NCBI GenBank assembly: GCA_943736015.1 | Contig: OX031063.1 | Location: 36,920,172-36,984,171, forward strand | Direction: 5' to 3' | DNA from: Tridacna crocea | Lineage: Eukaryota > Mollusca > Bivalvia > Cardiida > Cardiidae | DNA length: 64,000 nucleotides | Shown: piece by piece, positions 32,401 to 51,545 of the stretch | Layout: the number at the start of each line of letters is the position of its first letter | Numbering within the stretch: the first letter of the stretch is position 1 | Program-made: the position numbers and the translations under genes | Notes under the pieces: generated by a model | Databases searched by the model: none | What the model saw: the letters and a program-made list of their open reading frames with translations, nothing else | What the model was told of the DNA's origin: nothing

Positions 32401-35400
32401 CATCTTGCAACTATCTTCGTCGAGTAAGATATAACTGTTATCATGCAACTTGAATCATATACAAGCCCCAGGAAAGCTACCACAGTATAGAATTTTGATA
32501 TATGTTGATATCATGTTTAAACAATCAATATTTTATGGATGAACTTACCATAAAGAATTTGGAATATGCCCTCAACAAATTTTTTCTGACATTATTTGGA
32601 TATTCTTCTGCTTCAAGCTTGATATTCTTTGATACTTTTCCAGCAAGGAGAGGACTCTCGTTACTCATTGCATCCTCTGTAACAGTGAAAAAATTAACTC
32701 CTTCGCACAGATACTCTCATTGTTTTAATAGCACAGAGAAAAAGAGCTTTGAAAACATCATGGAAAAAGGAGAAAATGATGTTTACCAGCATTTTCCACT
32801 TTCCCACAATGTTTTCTGCCCTATGAAAGACAAGTTCATTATTTGAGCCAACTGCTTATTTTTATCTATTTTCAAAATGGACAAGTCCAGAGTTTTATTC
32901 TTTGAAACAGAGTAATAACATTCTTTAAAAATTTCAGTCTGTTCATTTTTATTTCAGTTTTAATCATTCTGTTCTCAACATTCATTTCCATACCAAAGTC
33001 ATCTTGTTGCATTTTGCAGTTTTGTTTCTTGAGCTACACATTCATGCTTACCTCTGTTTATAGATATATCCAATTTCATCTATCTTTATGTGGCAATCAT
33101 CTTCAAAATTAAGAAAATTTCCATGTCAGAACTGAGAGAACCACATCTACAGACTTACTACAATTTGTAAGATATTCATATCAACTTAACAAACATCCAC
33201 CACTGACTGTGGCATGTAAAGTCTGAAATAAGGCCATACCCACAGTCCCTAGTATTTGTCCCCAGGGCTGACTGGACAGTATGTTCATCTCCAGGGGCTG
33301 GACCAGAGTGGTTAGTGTCCAAAGTCTGACGGTAGAATCTCTTGAACTGGATGCAAGGATAAAAGGTCTTTTCGGATGACATGTTAAACCTGCAAAAAAG
33401 TGGATTAATGCTTTTCTGTACATCCCATCAAAAATTAATCAGACAGAGGACAAATAAGATACAATGCCTTTTAAATAAATAATTGAATAATTGAATTACA
33501 CTTTTTCAGTCATTACAAAAGATGTAGATACTGACATTTCAAAGCTGCCTTGGTCAAAATATTTGGCACAGAAGTGGGCAGTGTGGGTCTAAAGTCATAC
33601 TACATGTTAGGTGAGTTCTGGTCATGATCAACATCATCCACATCTATGATCATAGGTTCAGTACTTTTGGGTTCACCCTGTACTACACAGGGCCAAGTCT
33701 TAAAGACCCTGAGGAAAAAAAAGCTTTAGAAACATTGTGGAAAAAGGAGCATATTCTGGTTACCAGCAATTTCTCCTTTTTCCACAATATTTTCCATCAT
33801 TTTAAATACAAATCCTGCTATTTCAGACATATCTAAATTGTTGTCTGCAAATACATTCAACTTTACACATCTACGATATTAATATTTGGTACAGAATCAA
33901 TATTAAATATTTACCAATTGACTCTTTACAAGATAAGAAAAATCTGATTTGTCTAAATTAAAAGCATTTGCAGTCAACAAATTATATGAAAAGGCCAAGT
34001 TTGAGGTAAATATCTGTTGTGATAGAAAAAAAGATACTAGGTGGCATAAAAATGATCATAAAACTAAAACCAACAAGGCTATAACATTAACTTTTTACAT
34101 AACAATAAAATTTCAGACCTGTCTACATGAATTTCCTTTGAAGACATCAAATCAAATGTAGATCAATGGACAGCAATTGTCTTCCAAAGGATAGAAACAA
34201 TTGTTGGAAAAAGAGAAAATGCTGGGTATCAGCATTTTCTCTTTTTCCTACAATGTTTCCCAAAACCCCCTTTTTCAGGATCGTTTAACTCTTTACCACA
34301 CAATCCCTAATTTTGTCGCCCCTGAGAAATAATCCTTTTGAAAACACTGTAGGAAAAGGAGAAAATGCTGGTGACCAGCATTTTCTCCTTTTCCCACAGT
34401 GTTTTCTACCCTTCCCAGAACTAATTGCAATTTTTCAGTCACCTTTATTTTGTCGTCTGCAAATGCTTTCAATTTGGACCAGTCTGAAATTTTTTCGTGT
34501 GGTAAAAAGTTAACCTTTTGACAACAATGACAACTTTTGACGACCCTAAAGTAGAAGCCTTTTGAAAACATTGTGGGAAAAGGAGAAAATGCTGATAACC
34601 AGCATTTTCTCCTTTTCCCACAATCTTTTCTAACCTTCCCAAATCAAATTTTGATTTCTCAGTCACATTTATTATGTTGTCTGCAAACGCTTTCAATTTG
34701 GACCAGTCTACAGATTTGTAGTTTGGTAAAAGAGTTAACTCTTTACCACACGAGAAAATTTTGGACTGGTCCAAATTGAAAGTATTTGCAGACGACAAAA
34801 TAAAGGTGACTGAAAAATAGAAATTTGTTCTGGGAAGGGTAGAAAACACTGTGGGAAAAGGAGAAAATGCTGGTTTCCAGCATTTTCTCCTTTTCCCACA
34901 GTGTTTTAAAAAGACATCTTTCTCAGGGGCGTCAAAAGTAGGGATTGTGTGGTAATGGGTTAAACACAGGATAGTTAGGTGAAGATTTAAATAAAACAGT
35001 TTACCATACACATCTGCACCATGGTCTTTGATGGTATCTAAACAGGCTCCTTTTCTAAGATCCCAAACTTTTAAAGTTGAATCCCAGCTTCCAGAAATGA
35101 CCAAGTATGGAACTTCAGTATTCCATAAGAGACCCCTAACTGGACCTTTGTGACCAGTTAATGTAATGATACAGGCATCCTGGGAGTAGTCCCATACTTT
35201 AATGGTGCTAAAACATAACATTATATAACAAGTCACATTTTTATACTATTTTGTACTTACCAAAGTCTACATGTTTACCAACTACAAAATGACAAATACT
35301 AGAAAACAAGATTTATGTTGGATCTTACTGAGACTTTATCAAACAACAAAATTTTAGAGTTGTCCTTCTTGAAAACAATAGCAGACAACAGTGTCAGTGT

Positions 35401-38400
35401 TGCTCAAATAGCGCAAAGTTTCTTTGGTAGAAAAAATTGTGGGAAAAGGAGAAAATGCTGGTAACCACAATGTCTTCAGAAGGCTTCTTTCCCATGGTCA
35501 TTTTAAGTCGACATTGTGTGGTAATGGGTTAACCAACTATGTAGAAAAACATGGCATCTTCCTATAAAATAAATACAGGGAAATGAAAAGGATCTCACCA
35601 TAATCTTAATCTTTGATATATTGACTTCAAAATCAACATGAACCATCTGAACTTCATGGCAAACTTTTGTATTAAGTTTAACTCATTACCAAACGACAAT
35701 ATTTTAGGCTTGTCCAAATCGAAAGCATTTGCAGACGACAAAATAAAAGTGACTGAAAATTTGAAATTTGTTTTGTGAAGGGTAGAAAACATTGTGGGAA
35801 AAGGAGAAAATGCTGGTTACCAGCATTTTCTCCTTTTCCCGCAATGTTTTCTTAAGGCTTCTTTCTCAGGGGCGTCAAAAGTAGGGATTGTGTGATAATG
35901 GGTTAAAAGACATTAGTAACATCAGCATATAAATATCTGTACTAAGTTTAGTAAGTTGGAGGAAAATGAAGCAAAGCAAGAGGCCCAATCTTTTTCAATG
36001 GAGGGCATATTATACAGAAAGCATGGTAGACTATCTTTTTTAAAAGTGTAATTACTATTGTTGACTACCTGTCATGTAAGTCTTCAGTTATTGATTTAGC
36101 TTTTTACCACATGATCCTAAATTTTAACAACCTTAACCCGTTCCCAAACAATCCCTGGTTTTTACGGGTCTCAAATAGTAGCCTTTTGAAAACATCATGG
36201 GAAAAGGAGAAAATGCTGGTAACCAGCATTTTCTCCTTTTCCCACAATGTTTTCTACCCTATCATGGACAGAAACCATCTTTTCAGCAAGAGTTGAATTA
36301 TCCTCTGCAAATGCTTTCAATTTTGTCTAGTCCAAAAGTTTGTCGTTTGGGAAAAAAACGGGAAAAAATGGAAAGCCTTTTGAAAACATGGTAGGGAAAG
36401 AAGAAAATGCTGGTAAACAGCATTTTCTTCTTTTCCCACAATGTTTTCTACCTTTCTCAAATGTTTTAACTTTTAAGTCATATTTATCTTGTCTGCAAGT
36501 GCTTTCAATTTGGTATAGCCTAAAACTTTGTCATTTGGTAAAGACTTACTAAAATTTGACTTTTTCTTGAGCTCTAAATAGTTTTCCATGTAGTCAATTG
36601 ATATTTTGGTCACATCTTAGCATCATGTGGTAGACTGTGTGTGTCCAAGGTCAGGTAGTGAAAGAAGTAAATACATACACATTATCCATGGTGTTATTAT
36701 ATCATCACTAGTACTCACCAATCATCTGATCCACTGCATAACAAGTTCTCTTTCAAAGGAGACCATTTCACATGGAACACTTTAGCTGTATGTCCTGCAA
36801 TAGAAATATTGCTTATGTAGTATTGTTTCCTTAACACATTACCAAACGACAATATTTTAGGCTTGCCCAAATTGAAAGCATTTGCAGATGACAAAATAAA
36901 AGTGAAAATTTGAAATTTGTTTTGTGAAGGGTAGAAAACATTGTGGGAAAAGGAGAAAATGCTGGTTACCAGCATTTTCTCCTTTTCCCACAGTGTTTTC
37001 AAAAGCCTTCTTTCTCAGGGGCGTCAAAAGTAGGGATTGTGTGGTAATAGGTTAATCTGTTGTTTTATTTGTATTATTTACTGAGCAAAAAAGTAAGGAT
37101 AGGAATGAAGATAAATCATTTCTAGATTATTTATATCAAATTAACCCATTACCAGATGACAAAATTTTAGCCTTGTCCAAATTGAAAACATTTGCAGATG
37201 ACAATTTCATTGTGGCTCAAATGGTGAAATTCTTCTTTGATAGAGAAGAAAACATTGTGGGAAAATGTGAAAATGCTGGCTTCCAGCATTTTCTTCTTTT
37301 CCTACAATGTTTTCAAAAGGCTTATTTCCCAGCAGTCAGCATTGTGTGATAAAGGGTTCAGGATATAGAACGGAATAAATGCATCATTGTAATCGTAAGC
37401 CATTTCTTTTTCTAAATTAACAATTAGCAATTTTAATCCTTTCCCAAACAATCCCTGGTTTTTATGGGACTGGAATAGTAGCCTTTTGAAAACATTGAGG
37501 GAAAAGGAGAAAATGCTGGTAGCCAGCATTTTCTCCTTTTCCCAAAATGTTTTCTGCCCTATCATACACAGAAATCATCTTTTCAGCAAGAGTTGAATTG
37601 TCGTCTGCAAATGCTTTCAATTTGGTCTAGTCCAAAAGTTTATCGTTTGGGAATGGGGTTAATGTTGTGAATTCCATGATTGATCCACACTGGATCTTGC
37701 CTGATCTTGCAATAGGGGGCTTAATGCATCTCTGTGATGCATCATACCAAGCAAGACATCACCTAATTATAGATCCAAATTGGCAATTTTGTCATAAAAC
37801 AAATTGGATCACAGGGTAGGATCATCCACTGAAATGCAGAATTTTGAAGATAGTGAAAAGTTTCGGCCAATGTCAGCTGGCGGGGAATGCAACAGGCTGA
37901 CGTGAGTAGATACTTTTCCCAAATGCATTAACTCTTTACCACACGAGAAAATTTTACATTTGTCCAAATTGAAAAATGACAAAATAAAGGTGACTGAAAA
38001 ATTAAAATTTGGTTTAAGAAGGGTAGAAAACATTGTGGGAAAAGGAGAAAATGCTGGTGACCAGCATTTTCTCCTTTTCCCACAGTGTTTTCAGGAGGCT
38101 TCTTTCTCAGGGTCATTAAAAGTCGGGATTGTGTGGTAAAGAATTAAGCCCCCTTTTCTCCAAGCATGCATCATTTCATTTCATAAGTCAACTTCATTCA
38201 TTTCCATCTTATCTATCAAACAATAGGTCAATATGCCAAATCCGATAGTCTCAATTTGTACCTGAAAATACTTTCAGTGGATGATCAGAGCTTGTGGCTG
38301 TGTAATACACTCGAACATTCTTGTCTTCACATCCAGTTGCTAACATATCCCTGGAAAGCAAAGAGTCTTAGTATTCCTGTATCCCTTTGCAGAGACGGTG

Positions 38401-41400
38401 GAACTTTCGATGTGTCAATATTGAAAGCGACTGCTCATAATACATTAACTCTTTACCACACAATCCCTAATTTTGACCACCCTGAGAAAGAAGCTTTTTG
38501 AAAACACTGTGGTAAAAGGAGAAAATGCTGGTAACTAGCATTTTCTCCTTTTCCCACAGTGTATTCTACCCTTCCCAGAGCAAATTTCAATTTTTCAGTC
38601 ACGTTTATTTTGTCGTCTGCAAATGCTTTCAATTTGGACCAGTCTAAAATGTTCTCATGTGGTAAAGAGTTAAGTGATGCAATTTTTCTCTAAAAAACCC
38701 ACAAAATTTTAAAGAAAAAAGGAGAATACACATTTCTGCTTTGGCCATGGTATTTTTAAAAGCTCTTTTTGTAAAGGTTGTAAAAACAGAGGATTGTTTT
38801 GGTACAGGGCTAAATTGATCATTTGGTTCCACCCACCAAGATTCCACTTGAAATTAAATTGTAAACATTTGAAATTTACATTTCACTGTATCTATTGACG
38901 GCATATTTTGTTTACTTTTAAAAACAATTTTAAAAAATTGTCTCTGGATGTAGTAGATCACAGAAAATCAGCCATTTTGACATTTTCAAAGCTTTCCTAA
39001 CAATGTGACTAACACGATAGTAGAAATAGCCCCGCATTTACTTACAAAACATGAAATAATGAGCCTCAAGCTGCCAACTATGGAGATCTAGCCATTTTGA
39101 ATTTTCCTTTTGTTACAGTGTTTCCTAATCATGGTTAACTTGAAGAAAAAGAATTTTGTTGGCATGACGACATGAATTACAAACTAATTCAAAACAGCAA
39201 GTAATCAAAAACAGAAAATTCTAAGCAAAATAATAGCATCTTACTTATTATGTGGACACCAATCACAACCAAACACAGGTGCAGGATGTTTGTACTTTTG
39301 CAAAATTTCTCCATCCACTTGCCGTATTATGCTTTGATAAAAAGAAACATAAAGATTTGAAAGAATGTATAAATTTCTTTAAAAAGATAAGGAGACAAAG
39401 TTCAACCTTTAACTAAACAATCTTGTACTTCCATGGCCCTTAGGAAAGGATCCTTACAAAACAATGCAAGAAAAGGAGAAAACACCTGTAACCAGTATTT
39501 TCTCCTTTTCCCACATTTCCTACTACAAGAAAGACAAAGTCCATGATTTAACCCGTATTTCATTTATCGTCTGCAAATGCTTTTCAATTTAGTAAGAAGT
39601 ATTTTCTCCTTCTCCCACAATTTCCTACCACAGGAAATACAAACATTTCAGCTGCCTTTCACTTGTCTTTTGCAGGCAATTTCAAATTAGTCTAGAATTT
39701 TGTTGTTTGTTAGAGAGTTTAAGTTTAAGATCATTGTCACAATGTTTACTTGAAACACACGATTTCACCATCCAATTATATATTAATTCTTTACCACACA
39801 ATCCTGACTTTTAACAACCCTGAGAAAGAAGCCATAGAAAACATTGGTCACTGGTTAAAAGCTCTTTCAAGTTAAAACTAGTTACCAGCATTTTCTCCTT
39901 TTCCCGCATTTTTTTTTATCCAAGCCAGAAATCATCATATTAAAAAGTCTTTATTTATTGACTGGAGATGGGTAGAATTTGATTCAGTCTAAAAATTTGT
40001 CATCTGGTAAAGACTTAACCCATTACCACACAATCCCTACTTTTGACGACTCTGAGAAAGAAGCCTTTAGAAAACATTGTGGGAAAAGGAGAAAATGCTG
40101 GTAACCAGCATTTTCTCCTTTTCCCACAATGTTTTCTACCCTTCACAAAACAAATTTCAGATTTTCAGTCACTTTTACTTTGTTGTCTGCAAATGCTTTC
40201 GATTTGGGCCAACCTGAAATTTTGTCGTTTGGTAAAGAGTTAAACATTTTTGAAACAACCTATAGTATAGTATCCCCTTACTTTTCAAATTGAAGGGTAA
40301 ACTAAATTATGACAGTTTAGAAGGTACTCAAAGACCTACCAAAATTTGTCAGCTCCACAAGACATAATCTTTCTAGAATCCTTGTGGCTCCAGCTTACTG
40401 TGTAAACTGAAGATCTGCCATGCTGGAAAATATAAAGAAATGAAAAGCATCAAAGCAAACAAACAAAACATTTCATGCTACTTTTATCAATCCTTTTCCA
40501 TTTCTGATTTTCTTATCATGTACATGTGAAGACAGTATTTCCTTTCTTCCAAATGTAAAATGTGGGTTGTTTTACTCTTTACTAAACAGCAAAATTTTAG
40601 ACTAAACTGAAGTAAATTGTGGACGTCAAGATAGATAGTGCACAAATGATAAAATGTTTTTTAAACCTTTATTCTTCAGAACTGTTAAAAAAAAAGATTT
40701 GTAAGGTAAAGGACTAAATTTCTACAAACATTGTGGTCAGAGCTTATGATTTGTGCAAAATATGCATGAAGCTTTCAGACAAAAAACCTAGTATTGTGAT
40801 GCTCTCACAAACTTTTCATTTATGACATCAGAATTCCCCAATTCTAAACATAATCCTTTTAACGCACCATAGATCTATCACAATCCTAGTATATCCTTGA
40901 AGAATGTTCTCTGAAATATCTCATTTCCTAATAAGCAGTAGTACGACAGACATGTAGCGTCAAATACTCTTGACTGTATTCACAAAACATTTAATTCTTT
41001 AACAGTCAACAAAATTCAAAACTTGTCTAAACTGAAAGCATTTATAGATGACAATGTGGCTTAGTTCTTTACACCCACACTGTCCCGACTTTTAATGACC
41101 CTTAGATAGGAAACATTTGCAAGCATTATGGGAAAAGGAGAAAATGCTTGTATCCAGCATTTTCTTCTTTTCAGACCATGTTTTGTACCCTTCACAAAAC
41201 AAATTTCAAATTTTCAGTAACTTTTATTTGGTCATCAGCAAATGCTTTCAATTTGGACAAACCTAAAATTTTGTTGTTTGCTAAGGAGTTAAATGACCTA
41301 GGTGTGTCTTTGACAGGATAGAGAACATCATGGGAAAAGGAGAAAGTGTTGATTGACAACATTTCCTCCTTTTTCCACATAGAATACATTCTTACTAACT

Positions 41401-44400: not shown

Positions 44401-47400
44401 TAAGTCTGTGTTTGAAGTACACATATTCAAAACTGACAAAGATATTACAAAAGTCAAGGTTTTGTACCATGAAGACCATGCACATGACATAGACAAGGAC
44501 CACACCAGAGTAATGATTATACCTCCATGTTTTCCTTGAAAATAGCTGAGCTAACAATATTCAAAAGCATAAATTTCAATTAACCCTTTACCACACAATC
44601 CCGATTTTTGACAACCCTGAAGAAGAAAGCTTTTGAAGACATTGTGGGAAAAGAAGAAAATGCTGGTTACCAGCATTTTCTTCTTTTCCCACAATGTTTT
44701 CTACTATTCAAAAAAAAATTCAATTCTTGAATCAAATTTATTTTGTCATCTGCAAATGCTTTTAAAATGGACTGGTCTAAAATTTTGTCATTTGGTTAAG
44801 AGGTAAAGTAGTAGAACATGAAAAATGGGGACTGACGTTACCTGATCCCTTAGAAAGTCCCACTTTCTCCTCCCTAGGTCATAAAGACCTATCCCTCCAT
44901 CATGAAACGCACACACAAGGCGTGCCTGTGGAAGCGCAAACTGTGCTTGGTTAACCATACTAGGTGCCTGTGCTAAACTTGTGGAAGAGACATCGTTAAC
45001 AGTGTCAGATTCAGAGTATTGAGCTTGAGATCTTTGCATCTGACTATCACAGACTACTTGTAGTGCATGAAATCCTGTCTTTTTCACACTGATGTTTTCT
45101 AGAGGAGTGGATTTTGACACATTCCAAACACGTAATATGCCACTGAGAGTATCTGAATAAATAGAAAATGAATAAAAAAACTCATTATCCCTTTACTAAA
45201 TAATCCAAGCTTTAGCTACCCAGAGGGAGAAGGCTACTGAAAACAGTAAGGAAAAAGGAAAAAAAACGCTGGTAACCAGCATTTTCTCCTTTTCCAAGAG
45301 TGTTTTCAAGTCTTTAAGACAAACTTATTCAACCATGTTTGATATGTCATAATGCAAGTGCCTTGGGTTCGATGGGTCGAAAATTTTTGTCATAAAGTAA
45401 AACCTTAATGAAATATGTTTCTATAAGTAGCAACTCAAAAAAAAGGTCCTTTTAAATATAGATAAATGACATTGAATGCCATGGGTCTTTACAATTTACT
45501 TTTGCAAAAAGGACAAACTGCTTGTTACCACACATTTTCAAAGCACTTCCAGACAACACATTAAATGTAGTTAAAACAATGGGACTTGTCTTTGAAAAGA
45601 GAAGAAAGCAATGTGGAAAAGGGAGAATATATTGGATATCACAATTTTCTCCTTTTCTCACTATGATTTCTACTACTGGAATAAAACCAATTTTAAAAGC
45701 TACAGTGACTCTGTGACCTGCAAATGCTTTAAAATTTTGCTGTCCAGTAAAGAGCTAACTATCCCAAAAATGTTTTTACAATTATTTGCTAAGAATGTGT
45801 TTCAAAGTTAACCCTTTACCACACAATCCCAAGTTTTAATGACCATGAAAAAGTACCCTTTTGAGCACATTGTGGAAAAAGGAGAAAATGCTAGTTACCA
45901 TCATTTTCTCCTTTACCCACAATGTTTTCTACCATACCATAGACAAATTCCATCATTTGAGCCACATTTGAGTTGTTGTCCGTTATGGCTTTCAATTTTG
46001 TCCAGTCTAAAAATTTACTGTTTTGTAAACGATGAAATAAGACAATATACCTCCTGTTATGAATGTTCCTGGGGCACTTGGAACCCAAGACAGGGTCTTT
46101 ACTTTGGCTGCAACACTTGGTAACTGGAAAACCATAATAACACTAACAGAAGACGAGTCCACCAGCTGAACACCAGACAAATTATTAGATACAAGAAGAT
46201 AGTCCGACGACAGTGGATCCCACTCTAAACCTGTCACAGGATTTTCATCTTCATCATCTTCCTCATCAAGTTCTGGTTTGAAAGCATGTTTTTGAACTTT
46301 TGCTCCTGCAATCATATATATTTAAACAAATTCAAACCATCAAGACATTTTCTTCAGGGCGTTTTCTTTTTTTTTTTATAATAAAAAAAAAAGAATGACT
46401 TGGCAACTTTTCACCTATTTATAAAACTCTCTTTTCTGTCCATGTACTAACACTAGGACCAAAAATGCAACAACAGAATGTCATCTTCACAATAATTTCC
46501 ATACTTTAAATGGTAAGATTTAAATCTAAGTGGATTTTCACATCCAGATTGTTTACTTTTTGTGGCCACTGGGCATTTAACCATTGCAACACCATTGATA
46601 TAGTTTGTATTTAGAAGGATAAAAAATATAGTAGGAAAAGGAGAAAATTTCTCCTTTTCCCAAAATGTTTTCAAAAGCATTCCTCCTTTGGCTTGTAAAA
46701 ACATGAGACTGTCTGGTTTACAGTCAACCCAAACAGAGCTTAAGTAATGAAATAGGAAACAAATGGAATATTGATGTTTTATAAAAAAAAAAATAGGAAT
46801 GCTTAGTCAAGAAATTCTAAAATCCGTCTGTTCTTTCTTTATCAATAGTCCTACAGCAATACCGAAAAACAAGATCTTACCAACAGTACAAAATGAAACA
46901 CTTCCATCTTTGTGGCCGATGGCTACTTTCTCCAATTTTTTGCCATGCCAGCGAAAGCATGTAACATCTGACACAAAGTTCCCTGTATCCTTGATTGTAC
47001 TGATTCCTGAGGTAGAACTAGGTAAATGGTAAGACCAAAGAGTCAATGGTCCCTTGCCACTTATGTAAGAAACCATATCCCCATTTAACTGACACCATCC
47101 GATGGTAACTGCTGTACCTTTTGTGTTCTCAAAAACTGAGAGTGCTTTCTGCTTTGAAATATCCCATACAATGATCTTACTTTCAAAGCTAGCACTTGCA
47201 AAGATGTTCTGGTTTTTGGGATGCCAAGCGATTGCTGAGACAGTCTTCTTATGTTCTGCCATGATGGAGATAAGCTTGAATTGGTTAAATTTTCTGTCAA
47301 GCTGCAAAAGAAAAGAAAAAAGAGGTCTTTTTCTGTGTCACAGAATGTACAATATGAATCAAACACTACTTTTTCAACATTTTGAAAATATTTCATCAAG

Positions 47401-49362
47401 AAAGTAAAACATAACTCAACTGAACTATAAATTTATATCAGTTGCCATCATGCCATGCTTTTTCTGTAGTAACTGGTAACCAGCATGTTCTCTTCTGTTG
47501 TCTACCCCATAGAAGTGGAATTCTGTAATTTGAGCTGTATTTAACCCTTAGGCTGCTATTCACGACTCACTATCCGTTTGCAGACAGCGTAGTTCAAGAT
47601 CAGACTGCACAGAACATGCAGTCTGATCTTAGATATTCACTGTCCAATATGAAGGTAGCTTTACCCAAAACATGACTTTGAAATAGCAATATTTGGGCTC
47701 TGACCATCGACTTGAAAATTTCATTTTAGTTATTTAGCAGGATAAGGAATAACAGTCTTATTATGTTGTTTGACAATGTTTCTCAAATGGTAAGTCGAAC
47801 ATTCTATTGTCTGAAAAGCAGTTAACTGTTTGCCCTAGACAGTTTAAGCCTCACAACTTGAAACTTGAAAGAATGTCAGACAACATAATTATCAGATATG
47901 GCTCAAATAAGTGGATTTTGTCTATGAAAGGTAAAGTACATTTTGGGAACAGGAGAATATGGTTGTAACCAGTATCTATTCATTTCACATAATGTTTTCA
48001 AGTGATTGCTCTTTTCCGGTTCTAATTGTGTGGTAGAGGGCTAAGTCATGGCATGAATACCTGTGGAAAACCTCCATTTCTGTTATTTTTAAGAATTTGA
48101 TAACACTTGTATAACAACCTGAAATAGCCCTTTACTACACAAAAAAAAACATTGGATTTTTCTGATTTGAGAACATTAACTGGGACTGGAATGTTGGAAA
48201 TTGTCTGTAAAAGGGTATAAAAAAATGAGGGAAAAGGAGAAAATGCTAGTTACCAGCTTTACATGTTTATGTCCTTTTCTCACAATTTTTTCAAAAAGCT
48301 ATCTTGCACAGAAATTGTTTGTAAAGGGGTAACCAAGTCACATTTGTAAGTTTATCTTTCCGTTATTGATGCTAATAGACAGATTATCACTATACACATG
48401 ATTGAAAAGGGAAAAAAAAATCATGTTCATTACAATGGTTAGCAGTGATCTATCTTTAAATGTATTGATGATGTATTGATATATTGATTGATTGATCGGC
48501 TAATTAATTCATTAAGCCTTTCCCAAACAAGCCCTGGTTTTTATGTGTCTGCAGTAAAAGTCTTTTGAAAACATTGTGGGAAAAGGAGTAATTTCTTGTA
48601 ACAAGCAATTACTCCTTTTCCCACAGGATTTTTTACTCATTTTGAGAACTTTCTGGCATTTTCTCCAAATCTAAAATTGTCGTCTGCAAACTCTTTTAGT
48701 TTGGAAGAGTCCAAAAATTGTCGTTTGGGAATGGGTTAAATGATTGGTGTTTTACATTACTTTCAACATAATTTAAATCAAGGCCACAGCTAACAATATC
48801 CAGGGTTTCACAGGTCAAGCACTAGGCAAGAGATCTGAAGTGTCATGCTAAAAAACACTCCTATAAAGAAATTTATGAGAGCACAATAAATAAGCAAACG
48901 ATACTTTTGGAACAAAAAGTGATGAATATTGCTGCTCTATTTCTATTCATTAATTCAACTTCTAATTTTGTTATTCTGACTCTTTACCAAACTACAAAAT
49001 TTCAACTGGTCCAAATTGAAAGTACTTGCAGATGACAATGTGAATCTAACTCAAAAGCGGAAATTCGTTTCCAGCAGGGTAGAAAAAATTGTGGGAAAAG
49101 AAGAAAATGCTGGTTACCAGCATTTTCTCTTTTTCCCACAATGTTTTCAAAAGGCTTCTCTCTCAGGGTCGTAAAAACCAGGGGTTGTTTGGTAAAGGCT
49201 TAAGTTTCATCAAAACTACATTGAAAGGAAAAAATTAGAACCTACCTCATAAACATATATGGCCAAAGTTGCACTATAAGCAAATCGGTCCCCACTGGCT
49301 GCACAGACATCATTGTTCCAGGGTTGACAACCGGCTGGTAAAAGTGCAACCTGGTTGACCAT
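17362..49362 (-). CDS. WDR17: WDR17, WD repeat-containing protein 17, complete gene of 25 coding exons
   Basis: Conserved animal WD40 scaffold of uncertain role. The 25 exons listed below join without a phase conflict to 3,846 coding bases (1,281 residues), close to the human protein of about 1,300. Residues 1-700 carry WD40 repeats, with clear signatures such as GSFDGTIKLWD (about 392), ISGSWDSTLKVWD (about 605) and ASSSRDSTVRLW (about 645). Residues 700-1281 are a helical repeat region resembling the C-terminal halves of IFT/coatomer-type proteins, with the conserved block RFCELMVELGEWERALAVAP and the terminus WAKVNPFSPLGTGYRINPF. All introns are GT-AG as read. The start ATG is at 49362, with an in-frame stop seven codons upstream. 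Nearly every intron is loaded with TTAA-hairpin MITEs, but no exon is interrupted. Confidence 0.97.
17528..18002 (+). mobile_element. Foldback element, copy 1 (WDR17 intron 24)
   Basis: Begins GAGGATATTTGTTG. A long inverted repeat runs from CGGTGAAAGATCGAAA to TTTCGATCTTTCAT with arms of about 65 bases around GGCATGCAGCC. After a T/A run it continues through CATGCTTTTAACCCTTTCTG to ACCGGAAAGCATGAAATAAA. A second copy lies at 27195-27661. Confidence 0.75.
18138..18315 (-). CDS. WDR17: WDR17 exon 24
   Basis: Residues 1183-1242. Contains SHLPSHSDVRISCLTGERIQ, nearly identical to the vertebrate NLPSHSDIHISCLTG block. Acceptor TTCCAG, donor CAG|GTATCC. Confidence 0.95.
18340..18475 (+). repeat. 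Imperfect ACAAACAAATGA microsatellite
   Basis: Degenerate 4-mer and 12-mer repeats of AAAC/AATG. On the minus strand it is a T/G-rich run just upstream of the exon 24 acceptor. Confidence 0.8.
18843..19125 (-). mobile_element. TTAA-hairpin MITE, subfamily IV, plus adjoining fragment
   Basis: The first copy ends at TTAA 19047-19050 and has lost the right arm. Its marker is GTCTCCAACAGGATAG. A second, decayed copy starts from the same TTAA. Confidence 0.7.
19579..19680 (-). CDS. WDR17: WDR17 exon 23
   Basis: Residues 1149-1183 (ALLQRDGYTDIGVTETQIHE then ECTAWSYVL). Aligns with the VPLKIEQLSEELDAWRAC region of the family. Acceptor CAACAG, donor CA|GTAAGT. Confidence 0.9.
20216..20650. repeat. 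Direct duplication flanking a dispersed repeat
   Basis: A segment of about 85 bases containing CTTATTGCAATTCTAGAGATC (20248) recurs as CTTATTGTAATTCTAGAGATC (20595). Between them is a repeat with GGATCAGCCTGC and GATTAGCCTGCATAGACTCG, a motif style shared with 30010-30060. Confidence 0.6.
20811..21039 (-). mobile_element. TTAA-hairpin MITE, subfamily I, near-perfect core
   Basis: Arms carry CACTGTGGG and CCCACAGTG and pair fully around a central T. The right end has drifted to GGGTTATA. Confidence 0.85.
21050..21315. repeat. SINE-like repeat next to WDR17 exon 22
   Basis: Contains TGATGGTAGTGTGGGAAAGC and CCCAGGAAAGCATGAATAGG, shared with 60665-60800 and 62240-62310. It ends within about ten bases of the exon 22 donor. 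Confidence 0.6.
21322..21423 (-). CDS. WDR17: WDR17 exon 22
   Basis: Residues 1115-1149, including YVGALIAIRRRYNSIVHPLF, matching vertebrate GYIGALLAIRRQYQSIVPAL. Acceptor CTTTCAG, donor CG|GTAAAC. Confidence 0.95.
21575..21803 (+). mobile_element. TTAA-hairpin MITE, subfamily I
   Basis: TTAA on both sides. The left arm has CACTATGGAAAAGGGAG against a consensus right arm. Confidence 0.85.
22025..22175 (-). other. Protein-like segment of unknown origin in WDR17 intron 21
   Basis: Minus strand reads LDHACYGHMFPLKEGFFVDG then QYSEDEYLIHVNISKVQLDQ, with balanced composition unlike the MITE translations. It is not part of WDR17 by homology. It could be a retained fragment of another gene or transposon protein. 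I do not recognise it. Confidence 0.3.
22420..22560 (+). mobile_element. TTAA-hairpin MITE fragment
   Basis: Only the right half remains (TTTCTCCTTTCCCCACCATG onward). Confidence 0.5.
23004..23097 (-). CDS. WDR17: WDR17 exon 21
   Basis: Residues 1084-1115, SIKSGNWTVGEVFSILQLLG then CIRTEVLLVH, matching SDWTLDTIYPVLDLLSYIRTEKLLLH in vertebrates. Acceptor ACATAG, donor AG|GTAACT. Confidence 0.95.
23130..23390. repeat. Dispersed repeat with GCGCAGGCTGACC motif
   Basis: Shares TGCGCAGGCTGACC with 30040 and the TATGGATCCATAAATATGA/ATCACAGAGATGCAT portion with 13500 and 37730. Confidence 0.5.
23625..23855 (-). mobile_element. TTAA-hairpin MITE abutting exon 20 donor
   Basis: Core arms TTATTGGAAAAGGAG and CTCCTTTTCACATAA surround GTAGGTTACCAGC. 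The right end (TGTGTGGTAGAG) stops about ten bases from the donor GTAAGA of WDR17 exon 20. Confidence 0.7.
23865..24006 (-). CDS. WDR17: WDR17 exon 20
   Basis: Residues 1037-1084, ANLPSLEDCFVEGEKLKRKV then NTFECVMWYLLSASPEIGLE. Matches the CKLPTVEECMQLAE...IFETVKYYLLSQEPEKAL region. Acceptor AACCAG, donor A|GTAAGA. Confidence 0.95.
24022..24732. mobile_element. 711-bp PIF/Harbinger-like non-autonomous element
   Basis: TIRs AGRCCYGTTTACACATTCAC plus GATTTTT match over 27 bases with two differences. A 3-bp duplication TAA flanks it (24019-24021 and 24733-24735), the TWA target typical of PIF/Harbinger. The interior is packed with degenerate CACGATTC/GAATCGTG octamers in both orientations. No transposase ORF is visible. 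Its left end is 14 bases from the exon 20 acceptor. Confidence 0.75.
24765..24990 (-). mobile_element. TTAA-hairpin MITE, subfamily IV
   Basis: Marker TTTGTTTCCAACAGGATAG precedes the core. Arms AATGTGGGAAAAGG and CCCTTTTCCACATT remain pairable. Confidence 0.75.
25240..25452 (+). mobile_element. TTAA-hairpin MITE, subfamily III
   Basis: Core tip TTGCTCGTAATGAGCAA. TTAA on both sides; the tail segment is shortened. Confidence 0.85.
25484..25592 (-). CDS. WDR17: WDR17 exon 19
   Basis: Residues 1000-1036, including RLAIDLLKLIPDNQLLLAKC, close to AADLLLMIPDNELHLIKLC in vertebrates. Acceptor AAACAG, donor AAG|GTATGG. Confidence 0.95.
26275..26452 (+). mobile_element. TTAA-hairpin MITE, core deleted
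   Basis: CATTACCACACAATCCCAAG leads into a left arm that ends GAGAAAATCC; the right arm is absent. Tail ends GGTAAAAAGTTAA. Confidence 0.6.
26555..26691 (-). CDS. WDR17: WDR17 exon 18
   Basis: Residues 955-1000, GAMSRLIRGNELELAVSMGM, matching AMAYLIRGNELELAVCVGTV. Acceptor CCCAG, donor TG|GTACCT. Confidence 0.95.
26960..27135 (-). mobile_element. TTAA-hairpin MITE, right arm deleted
   Basis: AAATTGAAAGCATTTGCAGATGAC and a left arm ending GTAGAAAATGCTGG are followed directly by the post-core segment. Confidence 0.55.
27195..27661 (+). mobile_element. Foldback element, copy 2 (WDR17 intron 17)
   Basis: Same layout as 17528-18002, but its inverted arms are better kept (TCGGTGAAAGATCGAAATTT / AAATTTCGATCTTTCACCGA). 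Ends ACCGGAAAGCACGAAATAAA. Confidence 0.8.
27932..28031 (-). CDS. WDR17: WDR17 exon 17
   Basis: Residues 921-954, including EWHFMNGSPVLSACCYLAMD, matching EWYFQDGRAVLAACCHLAID. Acceptor CTATAG, donor CAG|GTATGT. Confidence 0.95.
28087..28314 (-). mobile_element. TTAA-hairpin MITE, subfamily III, minus
   Basis: Core tip TTGCTCGCTACGAGCAA. Both TTAA flanks present; the left arm carries GAAATGAAG. Confidence 0.85.
28626..28859 (-). CDS. WDR17: WDR17 exon 16
   Basis: Residues 843-921, with YCAAIGEVGTLNNFLQSRGQ and LIAQAACEG matching YCIAIGDVKKLVHFFMSRGQ...VAQAACEG. Acceptor ATTTTAG, donor AA|GTATGT. Confidence 0.95.
28879..29105 (+). mobile_element. TTAA-hairpin MITE close to exon 16 acceptor
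   Basis: Starts about 19 bases upstream (transcript sense) of the exon 16 acceptor. Arms TTGTGGGAAAAGAAG and CTCCTTTTCCCACAA are nearly complete. Confidence 0.75.
29196..29385. mobile_element. Second TTAA-hairpin family, copy 1
   Basis: Starts TTAACCCTTAGGCTGC. The inner hairpin AAGATCAGACTG ... CAGTCAGATCTT is slightly imperfect. Related copies at 47541 and 53690. Confidence 0.65.
29431..29668 (-). mobile_element. TTAA-hairpin MITE, composite with core deleted
   Basis: Left half is minus-type (GATTGGTCCAAATTCAAGC) and right half plus-type (GGACAAGTCCAAAATTTTG), so both ends are the same terminus in inverted orientation. The core is reduced to one arm start. Confidence 0.65.
29990..30089. 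repeat. Dispersed repeat ending ATGCATAAGCCCCC
   Basis: CGCAGGCTGACC and TAGATGCATAAGCCCCCTTT match the element split by a MITE at 37860-38160. Confidence 0.55.
30090..30320 (-). mobile_element. TTAA-hairpin MITE, subfamily I, near-perfect core
   Basis: Arms with CATTGTGGG and CCCACAATG pair around a central T. Its right TTAA is 28 bases from the exon 15 donor. Confidence 0.85.
30348..30568 (-). CDS. WDR17: WDR17 exon 15
   Basis: Residues 770-843. Contains KEERLREAANLYIKQGNIQR and FCELMVELGEWERALAVAP, among the best conserved parts of the family. Acceptor AATTTCAG, donor AG|GTAAAA. Confidence 0.97.
30640..30885 (-). repeat. tRNA-headed SINE, diverged
   Basis: Minus strand opens CCTATGTGGCTCAGTGGTAA, an A-box-like start. 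The body has TTTCCTGGGTTTCGCCAGTACTAG. Confidence 0.6.
31026..31217. mobile_element. Small foldback MITE
   Basis: Inverted arms of about 75 bases: ...GCGAACAAAATTTG...ACTATAGTATAATAGCATTAATCTG against CAGATTAATGCCACTATACTATAGT...ATTTTGTTCGTAACTAC. Right end AGGGCCC is typical of marine-invertebrate MITE termini. Confidence 0.7.
31340..31465 (-). CDS. WDR17: WDR17 exon 14
   Basis: Residues 728-769, PPTGTDNLWELVSVIQGLDD then HYSKGIIHVKHLLKF, matching PPGGSDNLWNLVAVIKGQDD...KGIMHLKHLIKF. Acceptor TTCTTCAG, donor GCT|GTAAGT. Confidence 0.97.
31466..32548 (-). other. WDR17 intron 13
   Basis: This is one of the few introns without a clear hairpin MITE. A tRNA-like SINE head lies at about 32085-32160 on the minus strand (CAGCTCACTTGGTAGCA, then TTGTGGGTTCAGTCCCT). 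Nothing else seen. Confidence 0.6.
32549..32676 (-). CDS. WDR17: WDR17 exon 13
   Basis: Residues 685-727, EDAMSNESPLLAGKVSKNIK. Links the last WD40 blade to the helical half; matches GTPPLLCGKVSRDIRQEIEKL. Acceptor GTTACAG, donor ATG|GTAAGT. Confidence 0.93.
32692..32913 (+). mobile_element. TTAA-hairpin MITE, decayed, near exon 13 acceptor
   Basis: Core arms CATGGAAAAAGGAG and CCACTTTCCCAC. Starts about 16 bases upstream of the exon 13 acceptor in transcript sense. Confidence 0.6.
33240..33389 (-). CDS. WDR17: WDR17 exon 12
   Basis: Residues 635-685, LTCHPKRPFILASSSRDSTV then RLWTLTTLV, a full WD40 blade. Acceptor TTGCAG, donor G|GTATGG. Confidence 0.97.
33690..34284 (+). mobile_element. 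Three decayed TTAA-hairpin MITE remnants
   Basis: Cores at about 33735 (GTGGAAAAAGGAG / CTCCTTTTTCCAC, matched change in both arms) and 34205 (GGAAAAAGAGAAAA / TTTTCTCTTTTTCC, matched). The middle one (33915-34100) keeps only a half. Confidence 0.65.
34285..34513 (+). mobile_element. TTAA-hairpin MITE, first of a tandem triplet
   Basis: Subfamily I, arms with CACTGTAGG / CCCACAGTG, central base G. Right TTAA is shared with the next copy. Confidence 0.88.
34510..34738 (+). mobile_element. TTAA-hairpin MITE, second of a tandem triplet
   Basis: Same orientation as the first but with a CATTGTGGG-type core (tip GCTGATAACCAGC), so it is not a simple duplicate. Confidence 0.88.
34735..34963 (-). 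mobile_element. TTAA-hairpin MITE, third of a tandem triplet
   Basis: Inverted relative to the first two. Arms CACTGTGGG / CCCACAGTG; tip GCTGGTTTCCAGC. Confidence 0.88.
35005..35207 (-). CDS. WDR17: WDR17 exon 11
   Basis: Residues 567-635. Two WD40 signatures, TIKVWDYSQDACI and ISGSWDSTLKVWD, and the block GPVRGLLWNTEVPYLVISGS. Acceptor TTTTAG, donor G|GTAAAC. Confidence 0.98.
35330..35532 (-). mobile_element. TTAA-hairpin MITE, subfamily V, right arm deleted
   Basis: Left arm runs to GCTGGTAACC and then jumps to ACAATGTCTTCAG. Confidence 0.7.
35678..35906 (-). mobile_element. TTAA-hairpin MITE, subfamily I
   Basis: Complete, with one arm mismatch (CCCGCAATG on the right). Central base T. 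Confidence 0.87.
36133..36355 (+). mobile_element. TTAA-hairpin MITE, subfamily II, fused to the next
   Basis: Starts TTAACCCGTTCCCAAAC. Right end reads GTTTGGGAAAA and runs directly into another element without a TTAA. Confidence 0.8.
36356..36550 (+). mobile_element. TTAA-hairpin MITE, left end lost at fusion point
   Basis: Arms carry GAAAGAAGAAAATG and CATTTTCTTCTTTTC, a matched GGAG to GAAG change on both sides. Confidence 0.75.
36719..36794 (-). CDS. WDR17: WDR17 exon 10
   Basis: Residues 542-567, GHTAKVFHVKWSPLKENLLC, matching GHTAKVFHVKWSPLREGILC. Acceptor TTGCAG, donor TG|GTGAGT. Confidence 0.97.
36831..37055 (-). mobile_element. TTAA-hairpin MITE near exon 10 acceptor
   Basis: Begins 36 bases upstream of the acceptor in transcript sense. 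Mixed core: CATTGTGGG left, CCCACAGTG right. Confidence 0.85.
37141..37350 (-). mobile_element. TTAA-hairpin MITE, subfamily V
   Basis: Marker GTGGCTCAAATGGTG. Arms TGTGGGAAAATGTG and CTTCTTTTCCTACA have diverged independently. Confidence 0.75.
37433..37662 (+). mobile_element. TTAA-hairpin MITE, subfamily II
   Basis: Complete with both TTAA. Tip is GCTGGTAGCCAGC, so the central base is G. Confidence 0.85.
37675..38165. repeat. Dispersed repeat split by a MITE
   Basis: The left part ends AAATGCA at 37927 and the right part resumes GCCCCCTTTTCTCC at 38148. Joined at one TTAA it gives the common repeat end AAATGCATTAAGCCCCCTTT. Confidence 0.7.
37928..38147 (-). mobile_element. TTAA-hairpin MITE inserted in another repeat
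   Basis: TTAA 37928-37931 and 38144-38147 are the target duplication. The inner segment has an 18-base deletion after AAATTGAAAAATGAC. Confidence 0.9.
38262..38350 (-). CDS. WDR17: WDR17 exon 9
   Basis: Residues 512-542, DMLATGCEDKNVRVYYTATS, matching DMIATGCEDTNVRVYYVATS. Acceptor TTTCCAG, donor G|GTACAA. Confidence 0.97.
38445..38673 (+). mobile_element. TTAA-hairpin MITE, subfamily I
   Basis: Both TTAA present. Arms CACTGTGGTAAAAGG and CCTTTTCCCACAGTG; tip GCTGGTAACTAGC. Confidence 0.87.
39245..39331 (-). CDS. WDR17: WDR17 exon 8
   Basis: Residues 483-512, IIRQVDGEILQKYKHPAPVF then GCDWCPHN, matching IIRTIDGKVLHKYKHPAAVFGCDW. Acceptor ATCAAAG, donor AA|GTAAGA. Confidence 0.96.
39410..39725 (+). 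mobile_element. Decayed TTAA-hairpin MITE copies
   Basis: A core at about 39465-39515 and an extra right half at 39600-39720 indicate one copy partly duplicated. Confidence 0.5.
39783..40018 (+). mobile_element. TTAA-hairpin MITE, first of a tandem pair
   Basis: Left arm replaced by CACTGGTTAAAAGCTC; right arm CATTTTCTCCTTTTCCCGC intact. Shares TTAA 40015-40018. Confidence 0.75.
40015..40243 (+). mobile_element. TTAA-hairpin MITE, second of a tandem pair
   Basis: Subfamily I with a fully paired core around a central A. Confidence 0.9.
40340..40422 (-). CDS. WDR17: WDR17 exon 7
   Basis: Residues 456-483, HGRSSVYTVSWSHKDSRKIM, matching HGTNGIFCIAWSHKDSKRIA. Acceptor TTTCCAG, donor TG|GTAGGT. 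Confidence 0.96.
41061..41292 (+). mobile_element. TTAA-hairpin MITE
   Basis: Right terminus AAGGAGTTAA is clear; the left is TTCTTTACACCCACACTG without TTAA. Tip has drifted to GCTTGTATCCAGC. Fragments of further copies lie at 40990-41060 and 41300-41435. Confidence 0.7.
41518..41664 (-). CDS. WDR17: WDR17 exon 6
   Basis: Residues 407-455, VNTSPGNEGIIYSISWAPAD then GLFIWDIKRG, matching YTSPGNEGVIYSLSWAPGG...FIWNVQKG. Acceptor TTACAG, donor GAG|GTAGGT. Confidence 0.97.
41735..41935 (+). mobile_element. TTAA-hairpin MITE, diverged
   Basis: Core GTGAGACGAAGAAAATG ... ATTTCCTCCTTTTCC. Tail GGAATAGGGTTGA. Confidence 0.6.
42006..42233 (-). mobile_element. TTAA-hairpin MITE, subfamily V
   Basis: Right TTAA at 42230. 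Arms TTGCAGGAAAAGGAG and CTCCTTTTCCCACAA; central base T. Confidence 0.82.
42304..42446 (+). mobile_element. TTAA-hairpin MITE, right third missing
   Basis: Starts ACCTTTACCAAACAATC; the sequence breaks off after TTCTACCAAATGAATGACAG where the next copy begins. Confidence 0.65.
42448..42677 (-). mobile_element. TTAA-hairpin MITE with a perfectly matched variant core
   Basis: Both arms read TTAAGGGAAAAGG / CCTTTTCCCTTAA where the family has TTGTGGG / CCCACAA. Shares TTAA 42674-42677 with the next copy. Confidence 0.9.
42674..42902 (+). mobile_element. TTAA-hairpin MITE, tandem partner
   Basis: Arms CACTGTGTGAAAAGG / CCTTTTCCCACAGTG. Right end drifted to GTAAAGAGTAAAG. Confidence 0.82.
43058..43171 (-). 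CDS. WDR17: WDR17 exon 5
   Basis: Residues 369-406, GHVETIFDCKYSPQDCNMLA then TGSFDGTIKLWD, a textbook WD40 blade matching vertebrate WDR17. Acceptor GTGCAG, donor TGT|GTATGT. Confidence 0.98.
43810..44038 (+). mobile_element. TTAA-hairpin MITE, GAAG-type core
   Basis: Arms AAAAGAAGAAAATG / CATTTTCTTCTTTT match each other but differ from the usual GGAG/CTCC. Confidence 0.88.
44169..44396 (+). mobile_element. TTAA-hairpin MITE, subfamily I
   Basis: Left TTAA at 44169; right end GGTAAAGAGATAA. Core fully paired except at its base (AAGCTTTG / CAATATTTT). Confidence 0.82.
44580..44804 (+). mobile_element. TTAA-hairpin MITE, GAAG-type core, inverted tip
   Basis: Arms match as AAAAGAAG / CTTCTTTT. 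The central base is T although the flanks are plus-oriented, the reverse of the usual rule. Ends 37 bases from the exon 4 donor. Confidence 0.82.
44842..45152 (-). CDS. WDR17: WDR17 exon 4
   Basis: Residues 265-368, with TLSGILRVWNVSKSTPLENI, KKTGFHALQVV and LVCAFHDGGIGLYDLGRRKW. The middle (about 300-335) is a low-conservation linker, as in vertebrates. Acceptor TATTCAG, donor CAG|GTAACG. Confidence 0.96.
45185..45770 (+). mobile_element. Decayed TTAA-hairpin MITE copies
   Basis: Cores at about 45245-45305 (AAGGAAAAAGG ... CTCCTTTTCCAAGAG) and 45610-45670 are recognisable; the ends are not. Confidence 0.5.
45808..46032 (+). mobile_element. TTAA-hairpin MITE near exon 3 donor
   Basis: Left TTAA 45808. 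Tip GCTAGTTACCATC, central T in plus flanks. Ends 19 bases from the exon 3 donor. Confidence 0.78.
46051..46305 (-). CDS. WDR17: WDR17 exon 3
   Basis: Residues 180-265, with an acidic ELDEEDDEDENPV run, TGLEWDPLSSDYLLVSNN and LSWVPSAPGTFITG, all matching vertebrate blocks. Acceptor TTGCAG, donor G|GTATAT. Confidence 0.97.
46590..46730 (-). mobile_element. TTAA-hairpin MITE fragment, tip deleted
   Basis: Left and right arms meet directly (GGAGAAAATTTCTCCTTTTCC), removing the GCTGG tip. Confidence 0.6.
46881..47301 (-). CDS. WDR17: WDR17 exon 2
   Basis: Residues 40-180, largest exon. Contains MAEHKKTVSAIAWHPKNQNI (first full WD40 blade), ASASFESKIIVWD and GHKDGSVSFC. Acceptor TTTTGCAG, donor G|GTAAGA. 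Confidence 0.97.
47541..47740. mobile_element. Second TTAA-hairpin family, copy 2
   Basis: Starts TTAACCCTTAGGCTGC. Contains a perfect 13-bp hairpin AAGATCAGACTGC ... GCAGTCTGATCTT around ACAGAACAT. Confidence 0.7.
47760..48335 (-). mobile_element. Decayed TTAA-hairpin MITE copies
   Basis: Two old copies, with remnants of the core at about 47935-47990 and 48225-48290 (GAGGGAAAAGGAG with a widened tip). Confidence 0.45.
48512..48739 (+). mobile_element. TTAA-hairpin MITE, subfamily III with matched arm change
   Basis: Arms GGAGTAATT / AATTACTCC differ from GGAGAAATT / AATTTCTCC on both sides. TTAA flanks are intact. Confidence 0.88.
48975..49203 (-). mobile_element. TTAA-hairpin MITE, subfamily IV, near exon 1 donor
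   Basis: Marker GTTTCCAGCAGGGTAG. Core nearly perfect, tip GCTGGTTACCAGC. Lies 42 bases from the exon 1 donor. Confidence 0.82.
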
Positions 49363-50165: not shown

Positions 50166-50372
50166 AAAAGGATGCTTTAGTCAAGGATTAGAAGATTAAT
50201 CTGATTGCAAAATCTCGGTCTGTGGAAGAAAAGAATCAATATTGACAAACCAATATTTACTTATCCTGTAACAAAGCATGCTGGAATCTGGAGAAGAGTT
50301 GATGATTTTTTTAAGATATTCTCAATCATATGGTAGTTCTAAAAAAGAAATTGTTTCAGCTTTTACTTGCTT

Positions 50373-50603
50373 TTAACTCTTCTCCACAAAATCCTGACTT
50401 TTAACAACCTTGATAAAGAAATCCATTAAAAAGAAAATGTGGGAAAAGGAGAAAATGCTGCTAAACATCATTTTCTCTTATTCATTCCCACGATAGTTTC
50501 TACTCAAAGTAAACTTTCGAAGTTTTAGAAACATTAATTTTGATGTCTTCAACTACTTTAGATTTGGACAACCTTAAAATTTTGAGGTGTTGCAAAGAGT
50601 TAA
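50373..50603 (+). mobile_element. TTAA-hairpin MITE, first of a tandem triplet
   Basis: Shares TTAA 50600-50603. Core partly decayed (GCTGCTAAACATC). Confidence 0.78.
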
Positions 50604-50831
50604 CTCTTTACCACACAATCCCTACATTCCACCACCTTGACTTGAAAAAGAAGCCTAAGACAACATTGTAGGAAAAGGAGAAAATGCTGGTAACCAGTCT
50701 TTTCTCCTTTTTCCACAATATTTTCTACCCTCCACAAAACAAATTCAAATTTTCAGTCACATTTATTCTGTCATTTGCAAATGCTTTCAATTTGGACAAG
50801 TCCAAAATTTTGTCCTTTGGTAAAAACTTAA
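50600..50831 (+). mobile_element. TTAA-hairpin MITE, second of a tandem triplet
   Basis: Shares TTAA with both neighbours. Arms TTGTAGGAAAAGG / CCTTTTTCCACAA. Confidence 0.8.
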
Positions 50832-51020
50832 CTCTTTACAAGATGACTAAATTTTAGACTGATCCAAAAGCGGAAGCATTTGCAAATAACAAAATCAGTG
50901 TGTCTAACAGGATGAAATTTTCCTCTAAAAGAATTACCAACATTTTCTCCCTTTCACACATCTTATACAAAAGTCTTCTTCCATGTGTTTGTTAAAACTC
51001 TGAATTATGTGGAACAGTAT
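50828..51020 (-). mobile_element. TTAA-hairpin MITE, third of a tandem triplet, left arm lost
   Basis: Head TTAACTCTTTACAAGATGAC; the core keeps only CATTTTCTCCCTTTCACAC. Confidence 0.65.
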
Positions 51021-51058
51021 GGTTACCTGCCCTTCTGTATAGGTTCCCCTTTTGATAG

Positions 51059-51304
51059 TTAATCCTTTACCACACAATGACTACTTTTCTACTTTTAACA
51101 CCCCCTGAAAAAGAAGGCTTTTGAAAACACTGTAAGAAAAGGAGAAAATGCTGGTAACCAGCATTTTCTCCTTTTCTCACATTGTTTTCTACCCTATCAA
51201 AGAAAAATCATTTCATATTAGCCATGTTAAAACTGATATCTACAAAATTAATGTGTTTGCTTTTGATTTTGACAGGTCTAAATTTTTGATGTGTGGTAAA
51301 GGGT
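51059..51304 (+). mobile_element. TTAA-hairpin MITE with a short internal duplication
   Basis: CTACTTTT is repeated near the left end (ACTACTTTTCTACTTTTAAC), making the copy longer than usual. Confidence 0.78.
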
Positions 51305-51321
51305 AAACAACTTGTTTCAGT

Positions 51322-51545
51322 TTAACTCTTTACCAAATGACAAAATTTTGGACTGGTCCAAATTGAAAGCACTTGCAGACAACAAAGTAAACGTAACTCA
51401 AAAACTGAAATTTGTTTTGAGCTCGATAGAAAACACTCTGGAAAAAGGGGAAAATGCTGGTTACCAGCATTTTCTCCTTTTTCCACAATGTTTTCAAATG
51501 TCTTCTATCTCAGGGTTGTTAAAAGTTGGGACTGTTTTATTTTAA
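51322..51545 (-). mobile_element. TTAA-hairpin MITE, subfamily IV
   Basis: Arms GGAAAAAGG / CCTTTTTCC carry a matched change. Right end degraded at GACTGTTTTA. Confidence 0.75.

Follow-up and report, generated by a model that had tools for sequence, protein, structure and literature searches.

Matched changes between the palindrome arms of an abundant MITE family in Tridacna crocea

A 64-kb piece of one contig (C8) of the Tridacna crocea genome (1.05 Gb in 31 contigs), the whole stretch of DNA analysed and called the window below, carries many copies of a miniature inverted-repeat transposable element (MITE) with a palindrome at its centre. In some copies both partners of an arm pair have changed and still match. 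Single-arm mutations were found to build up after insertion, the majority of them remaining unmatched. Certain matched pairs are subfamily markers, and further matched changes arose in separate copies at a level above a cross-site control. About one origin per matched copy, together with a 4- to 7-fold excess at arm pairs k 14 and k 15 (k being the arm pair number counted outwards from the palindrome centre), supports some coupling between the arms, most likely slow. The explanation that we consider best, and to which we give close to an even chance, is slow arm-to-arm copying in hairpins (template switching) combined with amplification of well-paired founders.

Pairing, subfamily pairs and recurrent pairs

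The repeat unit is a single MITE of 227 model columns, 229 bp long when TTAA is complete on both sides. Its centre, at model column 88, is a 67-bp palindrome in which 33-bp arms flank one unpaired base. A 26-base anchor lying outside the palindrome gave 162,557 + 161,988 genome matches with up to 3 mismatches, and its reversed control gave 0. With the entire element as a DNA query the genome gave no hit, probably an effect of passing over very frequent words, and copies were therefore counted by pattern. Twelve 10-kb stretches (L041-L052), with round coordinates fixed beforehand, contained 100 MITE copies or fragments, the MITE share being 0-35% (mean ~15%) in these stretches and 35% in the window. 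Scaling up from the twelve stretches puts the genome total near 0.9 million copies or fragments; the very uneven MITE density makes this a rough figure.

The original prediction was that copies in general keep pairing while their sequence changes. This did not hold: between 33.6 and 51.5 kb, one or more arm positions are unpaired in 39 of the 42 palindrome-spanning copies. At least one matched change was present in 17 of the same copies, and pairing was perfect over at least 30 pairs in 2. The 92 palindrome-spanning copies of the whole window had 426 unpaired cells against 45 cells with a matched change. With 227 copies divided into five age bins, the fraction unpaired was 0.049, 0.076, 0.107, 0.187, and 0.275, against 0.053, 0.088, 0.123, 0.198, and 0.290 expected of independent arms. 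Strong maintenance of pairing in place was rejected, as the rise of mismatch with age comes close to that expected of independent arms.

Copies from the window and from fetched loci numbered 372, of which the 287 spanning model columns 45-130 were kept. Mixture clustering used the spacer columns alone, the palindrome being excluded, and a FastTree tree built from the spacers (154 columns) held 275 of 307 rows. The arm consensuses of the spacer clusters differ by five matched changes, k 3 G>C, k 8 A>T, k 13 A>T, k 20 G>C, and k 26 T>C, with matched counts of 20, 22, 5, 13, and 33 where 2.4, 3.1, 0.4, 3.3, and 10.0 were expected (all alternative bases counted). On the spacer tree, k 26 CC was found in 37 copies with 7 changes, k 8 TT in 21 with 5, k 3 CC in 15 with 3, k 20 CC in 7 with 1, and k 13 TT in 5 with 1. 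In the 127 less diverged copies k 26 tracks spacer markers with r values of 0.59-0.78. These five pairs are subfamily markers with few origins, carried by amplified lineages. Founder variants numbered 43-91 in the 154 spacer columns versus 3-5 distinct variants in the 66 arm columns, and the matched share of the arm variants was 2/3, 2/3, 3/3, 3/5, and 3/4 at K = 8, 10, 12, 14, and 16, respectively. We also observed G/C or A/T swaps at four of the five founder pairs (k 3, 8, 13, and 20), although transitions such as G>A predominate among the private changes.

Other matched changes recur on the spacer tree about once per copy. The matched copies and the changes that they represent were 6 and 6 for k 14, 8 and 8 for k 20 G>A, 18 and 16 for k 15, 3 and 3 for both k 24 and k 28, 2 and 2 for k 6, and 3 and 2 for k 23. 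Single-arm variants recur in the same way, for example k 14 AG in 27 copies with 25 changes. The 18 matched k 15 rows are 17 deliberate fetches and one window copy. Flanks were read for 20 of the 655 matched k 15 copies in the genome, namely the first 20 listed, all on a single contig (C1); two of these fetches had too little spacer, and one (L076) aligned as unmatched.

Genome-wide counts were made as exact matches to the 33-bp core, with all other core bases intact in the counted copies. The consensus core itself occurs at 180,061 places. For k 14 G>A there were 13,290 single and 2,314 matched double changes, with 245 doubles expected under independence, and for k 15 G>A there were 9,066 single and 655 matched double changes, with 114 expected. 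As a cross-site control we counted G>A at k 14 in one arm together with k 15 in the other; at this one pair of sites 452 places were observed against 335 expected, a heterogeneity of 1.35. Correction for this heterogeneity lowered the matched excess from 9.4 to 7.0-fold at k 14 and from 5.7 to 4.2-fold at k 15. The rare transversion k 10 A>C was found singly at 911 places and matched at 242, with ~1 expected. Matched doubles minus chance amount to ~15% (k 14) and 5.5% (k 15) of the singles in otherwise intact cores, and to 1-2% in the local sample of 287 copies. Separately, the single k 10 A>C places are strand-uneven (571 forward, 340 reverse), a skew that random insertion would not give, and six of them on the same strand cluster at 23.3-24.3 Mb of contig C2, perhaps as a local array.

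The fetched k 15 copies come from many lineages with some local relatedness. In the least diverged spacer cluster, where 0 of 76 copies have the k 15 match, some members lie 0.05-0.11 from four of the fetched copies (L062, L063, L073, and L074); to the nearest relative that also has the k 15 match, the distance of these four is 0.08-0.14. One of the four, L063, retains mismatches two and three pairs away. Over 18 fetched copies the mean nearest-neighbour distance was 0.237, versus 0.124 in random sets of consensus-core copies, which are younger. Median spacer divergence was 0.257 for matched k 15 copies, 0.143 for one-change copies, and 0.176 for two-change copies. A comparison of nearest sisters, too small at 13 disjoint pairs, gave 31 single differences, 2 matched, and 1 other.

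A duplicated insertion gives a closer view of one such change. Two loci 16 kb apart (L013 and L014) share 845 bp at 99.05% identity, flanks included, and these common flanks indicate a single insertion that was later duplicated. The two differ at 8 bases. Two of these are the k 14 partners, one per arm, and a third is in the left arm at k 33; the family consensus marks L013 as the one that changed. Another MITE inside the duplication has no arm change. The scan for duplicated insertions yielded eight pairs, of which the two L013/L014 pairs are true duplications and the other six align at 71-75%. A half-changed state was also seen: L042_1706, the nearest spacer relative (0.13) of the window copy with TTAAGGG/CCCTTAA arms at 42449-42676, has both left-arm changes (k 23 and k 24) and one of the two right-arm changes. 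Its state looks like a one-arm-first path, and a reversion would look identical.

Mechanism and rival explanations

In the mechanism that we propose, mutations would land on either arm after MITE insertion, and a base mutated in one arm would later be copied into the other at the same locus, as in a quasipalindrome-type event. Hairpin extrusion, with cruciform or hairpin repair or polymerase template switching between the arms, could provide the route. Copying the mutated base across would create a private matched pair; copying in the opposite direction would restore the old pair and leave no trace. A small minority of mutations would be touched. The lineages that still transpose would descend from well-paired copies, or the palindrome would be needed for mobility. 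Well-paired founders would account for the few, mostly matched arm differences between subfamily founders, versus dozens of differences in the spacers. The wider claim is that hundreds of thousands of MITE hairpins undergo cruciform or template-switch correction in the germ line, at rates depending strongly on the site and the kind of change; we put it forward tentatively.

Several observations weigh against slow copying. The unpaired fractions in the five age bins are 5-14% below the independent expectation. In the local sample, once the five founder variants were removed, 1187 cells were changed in a single arm and 69 were matched, against 50.7 expected after a heterogeneity-type correction; the matched ratio of 1.36 had a bootstrap median of 1.39 and a range of 1.05-1.78 (60 replicates). 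At k 11, where both arms are changed at 205 places, the excess is weak, with 38 matched among the 50 doubles listed versus 29.8 by permutation (p = 0.0005). The differences between sites are wide, and one uniform correction rate does not fit them; small lineages, repair bias, or both may lie behind them. Small founder lineages may also lie behind matched doubles, above all at k 10. Age-matched random sets are spread slightly wider than the 17 matched k 15 copies (mean nearest-neighbour distance 0.259 versus 0.236; 2.2% of 500 sets were as low). The pair L069/L070, at a distance of 0.032, adds to this closeness. These two loci are 93.7% identical over 301 bp, likely a duplication, and they cannot test a change because both were fetched for being matched at k 15. 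In age, matched k 15 copies also exceed one-change copies (p = 0.008), with no clear difference from two-change copies (p = 0.065); this fits a two-step process after insertion and also independent double hits.

The tree and the clusters call for similar caution. Built from 154 columns of old repeats, the tree, which was read without support values, has weak resolution. The clustering was unstable, giving one-armed founder variants at k 3 (K = 8 and 10), at k 26 (K = 14 and 16; in a mixed cluster), and at k 33 (K = 14; in an eight-copy cluster), and two small clusters have one unmatched site each (k 20 and k 21). The duplicated insertion L013/L014 is the sole informative one, and its three palindrome differences, which fall within 48 bp, could be due to one conversion tract from another MITE.

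All matched pairs could in principle be old subfamily markers, their recurrence being produced by old copies scattered over a weak tree. This holds for k 3, 8, 13, 20 (G>C), and 26, and the single-arm changes are indeed free; the 242 copies with k 10 A>C may be one small lineage, and the slight closeness of the fetched k 15 copies is in line with it. However, k 14, k 15, and k 20 G>A originate about once per copy, four k 15 copies sit near a cluster with no k 15 match, and L013 and L014 differ at a matched pair despite their single insertion site. Going by the spacer tree we judged it unlikely for k 14, k 15, and k 20 G>A, kept it for the five subfamily pairs, and regard it as possible for k 10; as a complete account it is quite improbable. 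Chance appears very doubtful as a complete account. In the local sample, arms that mutate independently in old copies, or copies that mutate faster at all sites, account for the majority of private matched changes; they also explain some of the k 11 doubles, and the matched k 15 copies are old. A heterogeneity of 1.35 nevertheless falls well short of the excesses at k 14 and k 15, and the k 10 count is beyond such heterogeneity. Chance is insufficient alone for k 14, 15, and 10, and it stands as part of the whole.

Selection could pair the changes if a DNA or RNA hairpin, or a palindrome bound by a dimer, were needed for mobility, a change in one arm lowering it and a second change restoring it; mobility lost and then restored would leave the founder changes paired. 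The sparse and mostly matched arm founder variants agree with this, as does L042_1706 if it is a one-arm-first intermediate rather than a revertant. Palindromes bound by transposase dimers are described in piggyBac-family ends (PMC11707139), a further point in its favour. Each matched change should then head an amplified clade. Copies per origin are, however, close to one at k 14, k 15, and k 20 G>A, and the swaps at four of the five founder pairs need a mismatched intermediate, not a G-U wobble. We hold compensatory selection to be rather unlikely. Exchange between copies, in which ectopic gene conversion places already-matched palindromes on other spacers and so makes a few founders mimic many origins, is in our judgement unlikely. 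Nearly a million similar copies (the scaled figure) are present, and the L013/L014 differences at k 33 left, k 14 left, and k 14 right lie within one short tract. However, among the copies of the younger half, spacer markers on the left are still linked to those on the right (r = 0.73 for -58 versus +43, for example), which shows that young subfamilies have not been scrambled by exchange. Exchange would also spread single-arm variants, and it leaves the first matched change unexplained.

The original prediction had proposed arm-to-arm repair or selection for pairing as the cause of the matched changes. An excess over chance was seen at the five subfamily pairs and, genome-wide, at k 14, 15, and 10, being weak at k 11 and slight locally; some coupling of the arms stood, and the upkeep of pairing failed in most copies. 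The outcome that it had named as contrary, a spacer tree that leads every matched pair back to one old founder amid free single-arm change, came out half true: the founder pairs and the free single-arm change were found, but k 14, k 15, and k 20 G>A recur.

Copies and neighbouring features of the window

The motif pairs cited in the original prediction were recovered in the window copies. TTAAGGG/CCCTTAA corresponds to k 23 and k 24, both matched, in the minus-strand copy 42449-42676 (above). GAAG/CTTC is a matched k 14 change in three plus-strand copies, with one unpaired position each in 43811-44037 and 44581-44804 and four in 36372-36548. AAGAG/CTCTT is a matched k 15 change in the minus-strand copy 34088-34288, which has six unpaired positions. 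GTGGAAAAAGG/CCTTTTTCCAC is the k 20 G>A change of the plus-strand copy 33675-33895 (five unpaired positions), and the same matched change is present in the minus-strand copy 51323-51537 (three unpaired positions). GGAGTAATT/AATTACTCC reflects k 8 and k 11, along with k 3, in the plus-strand copy 48513-48738. This copy belongs to the k 3/k 8 subfamily, has five unpaired positions, and carries its own matched k 3 (T) and k 11 (T); its three nearest relatives (spacer distance 0.078-0.105) have CC at k 3 and AA at k 11. CACTG/CAGTG is the k 26 founder pair, fully matched in 4 of the 42 regional copies, at 34286-34512, 38446-38672, and 42675-42899 on the plus strand and 34736-34962 on the minus strand. 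For reference, the full plus-strand copy 40016-40242 (nhmmer, model 1-227) has an unchanged arm string with all 33 arm pairs at consensus. Its central palindrome, placed from the sequence by the consensus centre, occupies 40070-40136 (unstranded) and comprises the 33-bp arms and one unpaired base.

The end-to-end neighbours 34514-34736/34736-34962 and 63502-63728/63728-63879 seem to have one TTAA in common, as if copies insert at a TTAA flanking another copy. On the minus strand at ~35020-35210 the sequence resembles, by eye, an exon of a putative WD-repeat protein gene with MITEs in its introns. Simple arrays at 54531-54648 (CACAAAGACA units) and 55929-56040 (TTTGTGTGTC units) are reverse complements ~1.3 kb apart and form an inverted satellite pair. 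At 15332-16372 a 166-bp unit is repeated in tandem 6.3 times with 88% matches. An Rfam scan of the window found no family at gathering score.

Mobilisation and known systems

The MITE is too short to encode a transposase. TTAA was present on both sides in 85 of the 95 copies matching model positions 1-227, on one side in 9, and on neither side in 1. The consensus ends are (T)TAACCCTTTACCACAC and, reverse-complemented, (T)TAACTCTTTACCAAAC, becoming TTAACCCTTTACCACAC and TTAACTCTTTACCAAAC once TTAA is completed, and the terminal inverted repeats start with CCC/CTC after TTAA. MITEs of piggyBac type have a TTAA target and CCC ends; TTAA is also the target of Kolobok-type MITEs. The element is probably mobilised by piggyBac. 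The genome has 118 matches to PF13843 (piggyBac-like), and ten of these loci were read closely. TTAA-CCC ends with 13 of 16 bases paired flank 6 of the 10. None of the ten has the MITE's ends as its own: six have other ends, and four have none within the 1.5-kb flanks. MITE ends occur in the vicinity of five of the ten. At one locus (L037, 775-3762) MITE ends lie just outside a piggyBac-like element that has CCCTTTATATAC ends of its own; the outer parts of the MITE ends make ~222 bp in all, as if the element were inserted inside a MITE copy.

Compensatory pairs are usually taken as proof of a selected structure. Many matched pairs in separate, dispersed copies, apparently without amplification, suggest that mutation may make such pairs directly, and subfamily founders are a warning in that they can mimic covariation. 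With ~180,000 intact cores in one genome, the rate of arm copying per base change would become measurable once orthologous insertions can be compared. If correction in the germ line is real, one mobile-element family would serve as a natural genome-wide assay of arm-to-arm DNA copying. The mechanism is already known, and it is the setting that is useful; among the papers listed in literature searches on MITEs and inverted repeats, judged by titles and the openings of abstracts, none deals with arm-to-arm copying in a MITE family.

With its TTAA flanks, its CCC/CTC ends, and its lack of room for a transposase, the element resembles piggyBac-type MITEs. It differs from them in its internal near-perfect 67-bp palindrome and in that no piggyBac-like locus among the ten read owns its ends. 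Long inverted repeats are reported to be actively maintained in Caenorhabditis (PMC1803023), and there, as here, inverted-repeat structure outlives sequence. The Caenorhabditis repeats are long, comprise gene pairs and intergenic repeats, and are far more conserved in structure than in sequence, whereas the MITE has 33-bp arms and loses its pairing as copies age. Template switching is described as restoring or creating stems in RNA genes (PMC8794818) and as occurring at yeast inverted repeats (PMC8604942; PMC3820800). Unlike in those systems, copying between the arms is here deduced from a many-copy MITE palindrome in which most single-arm changes stay uncorrected. The pattern is nonetheless like that of template-switch and quasipalindrome mutations, in which one event copies an arm difference across, restores pairing, and can recur in parallel.

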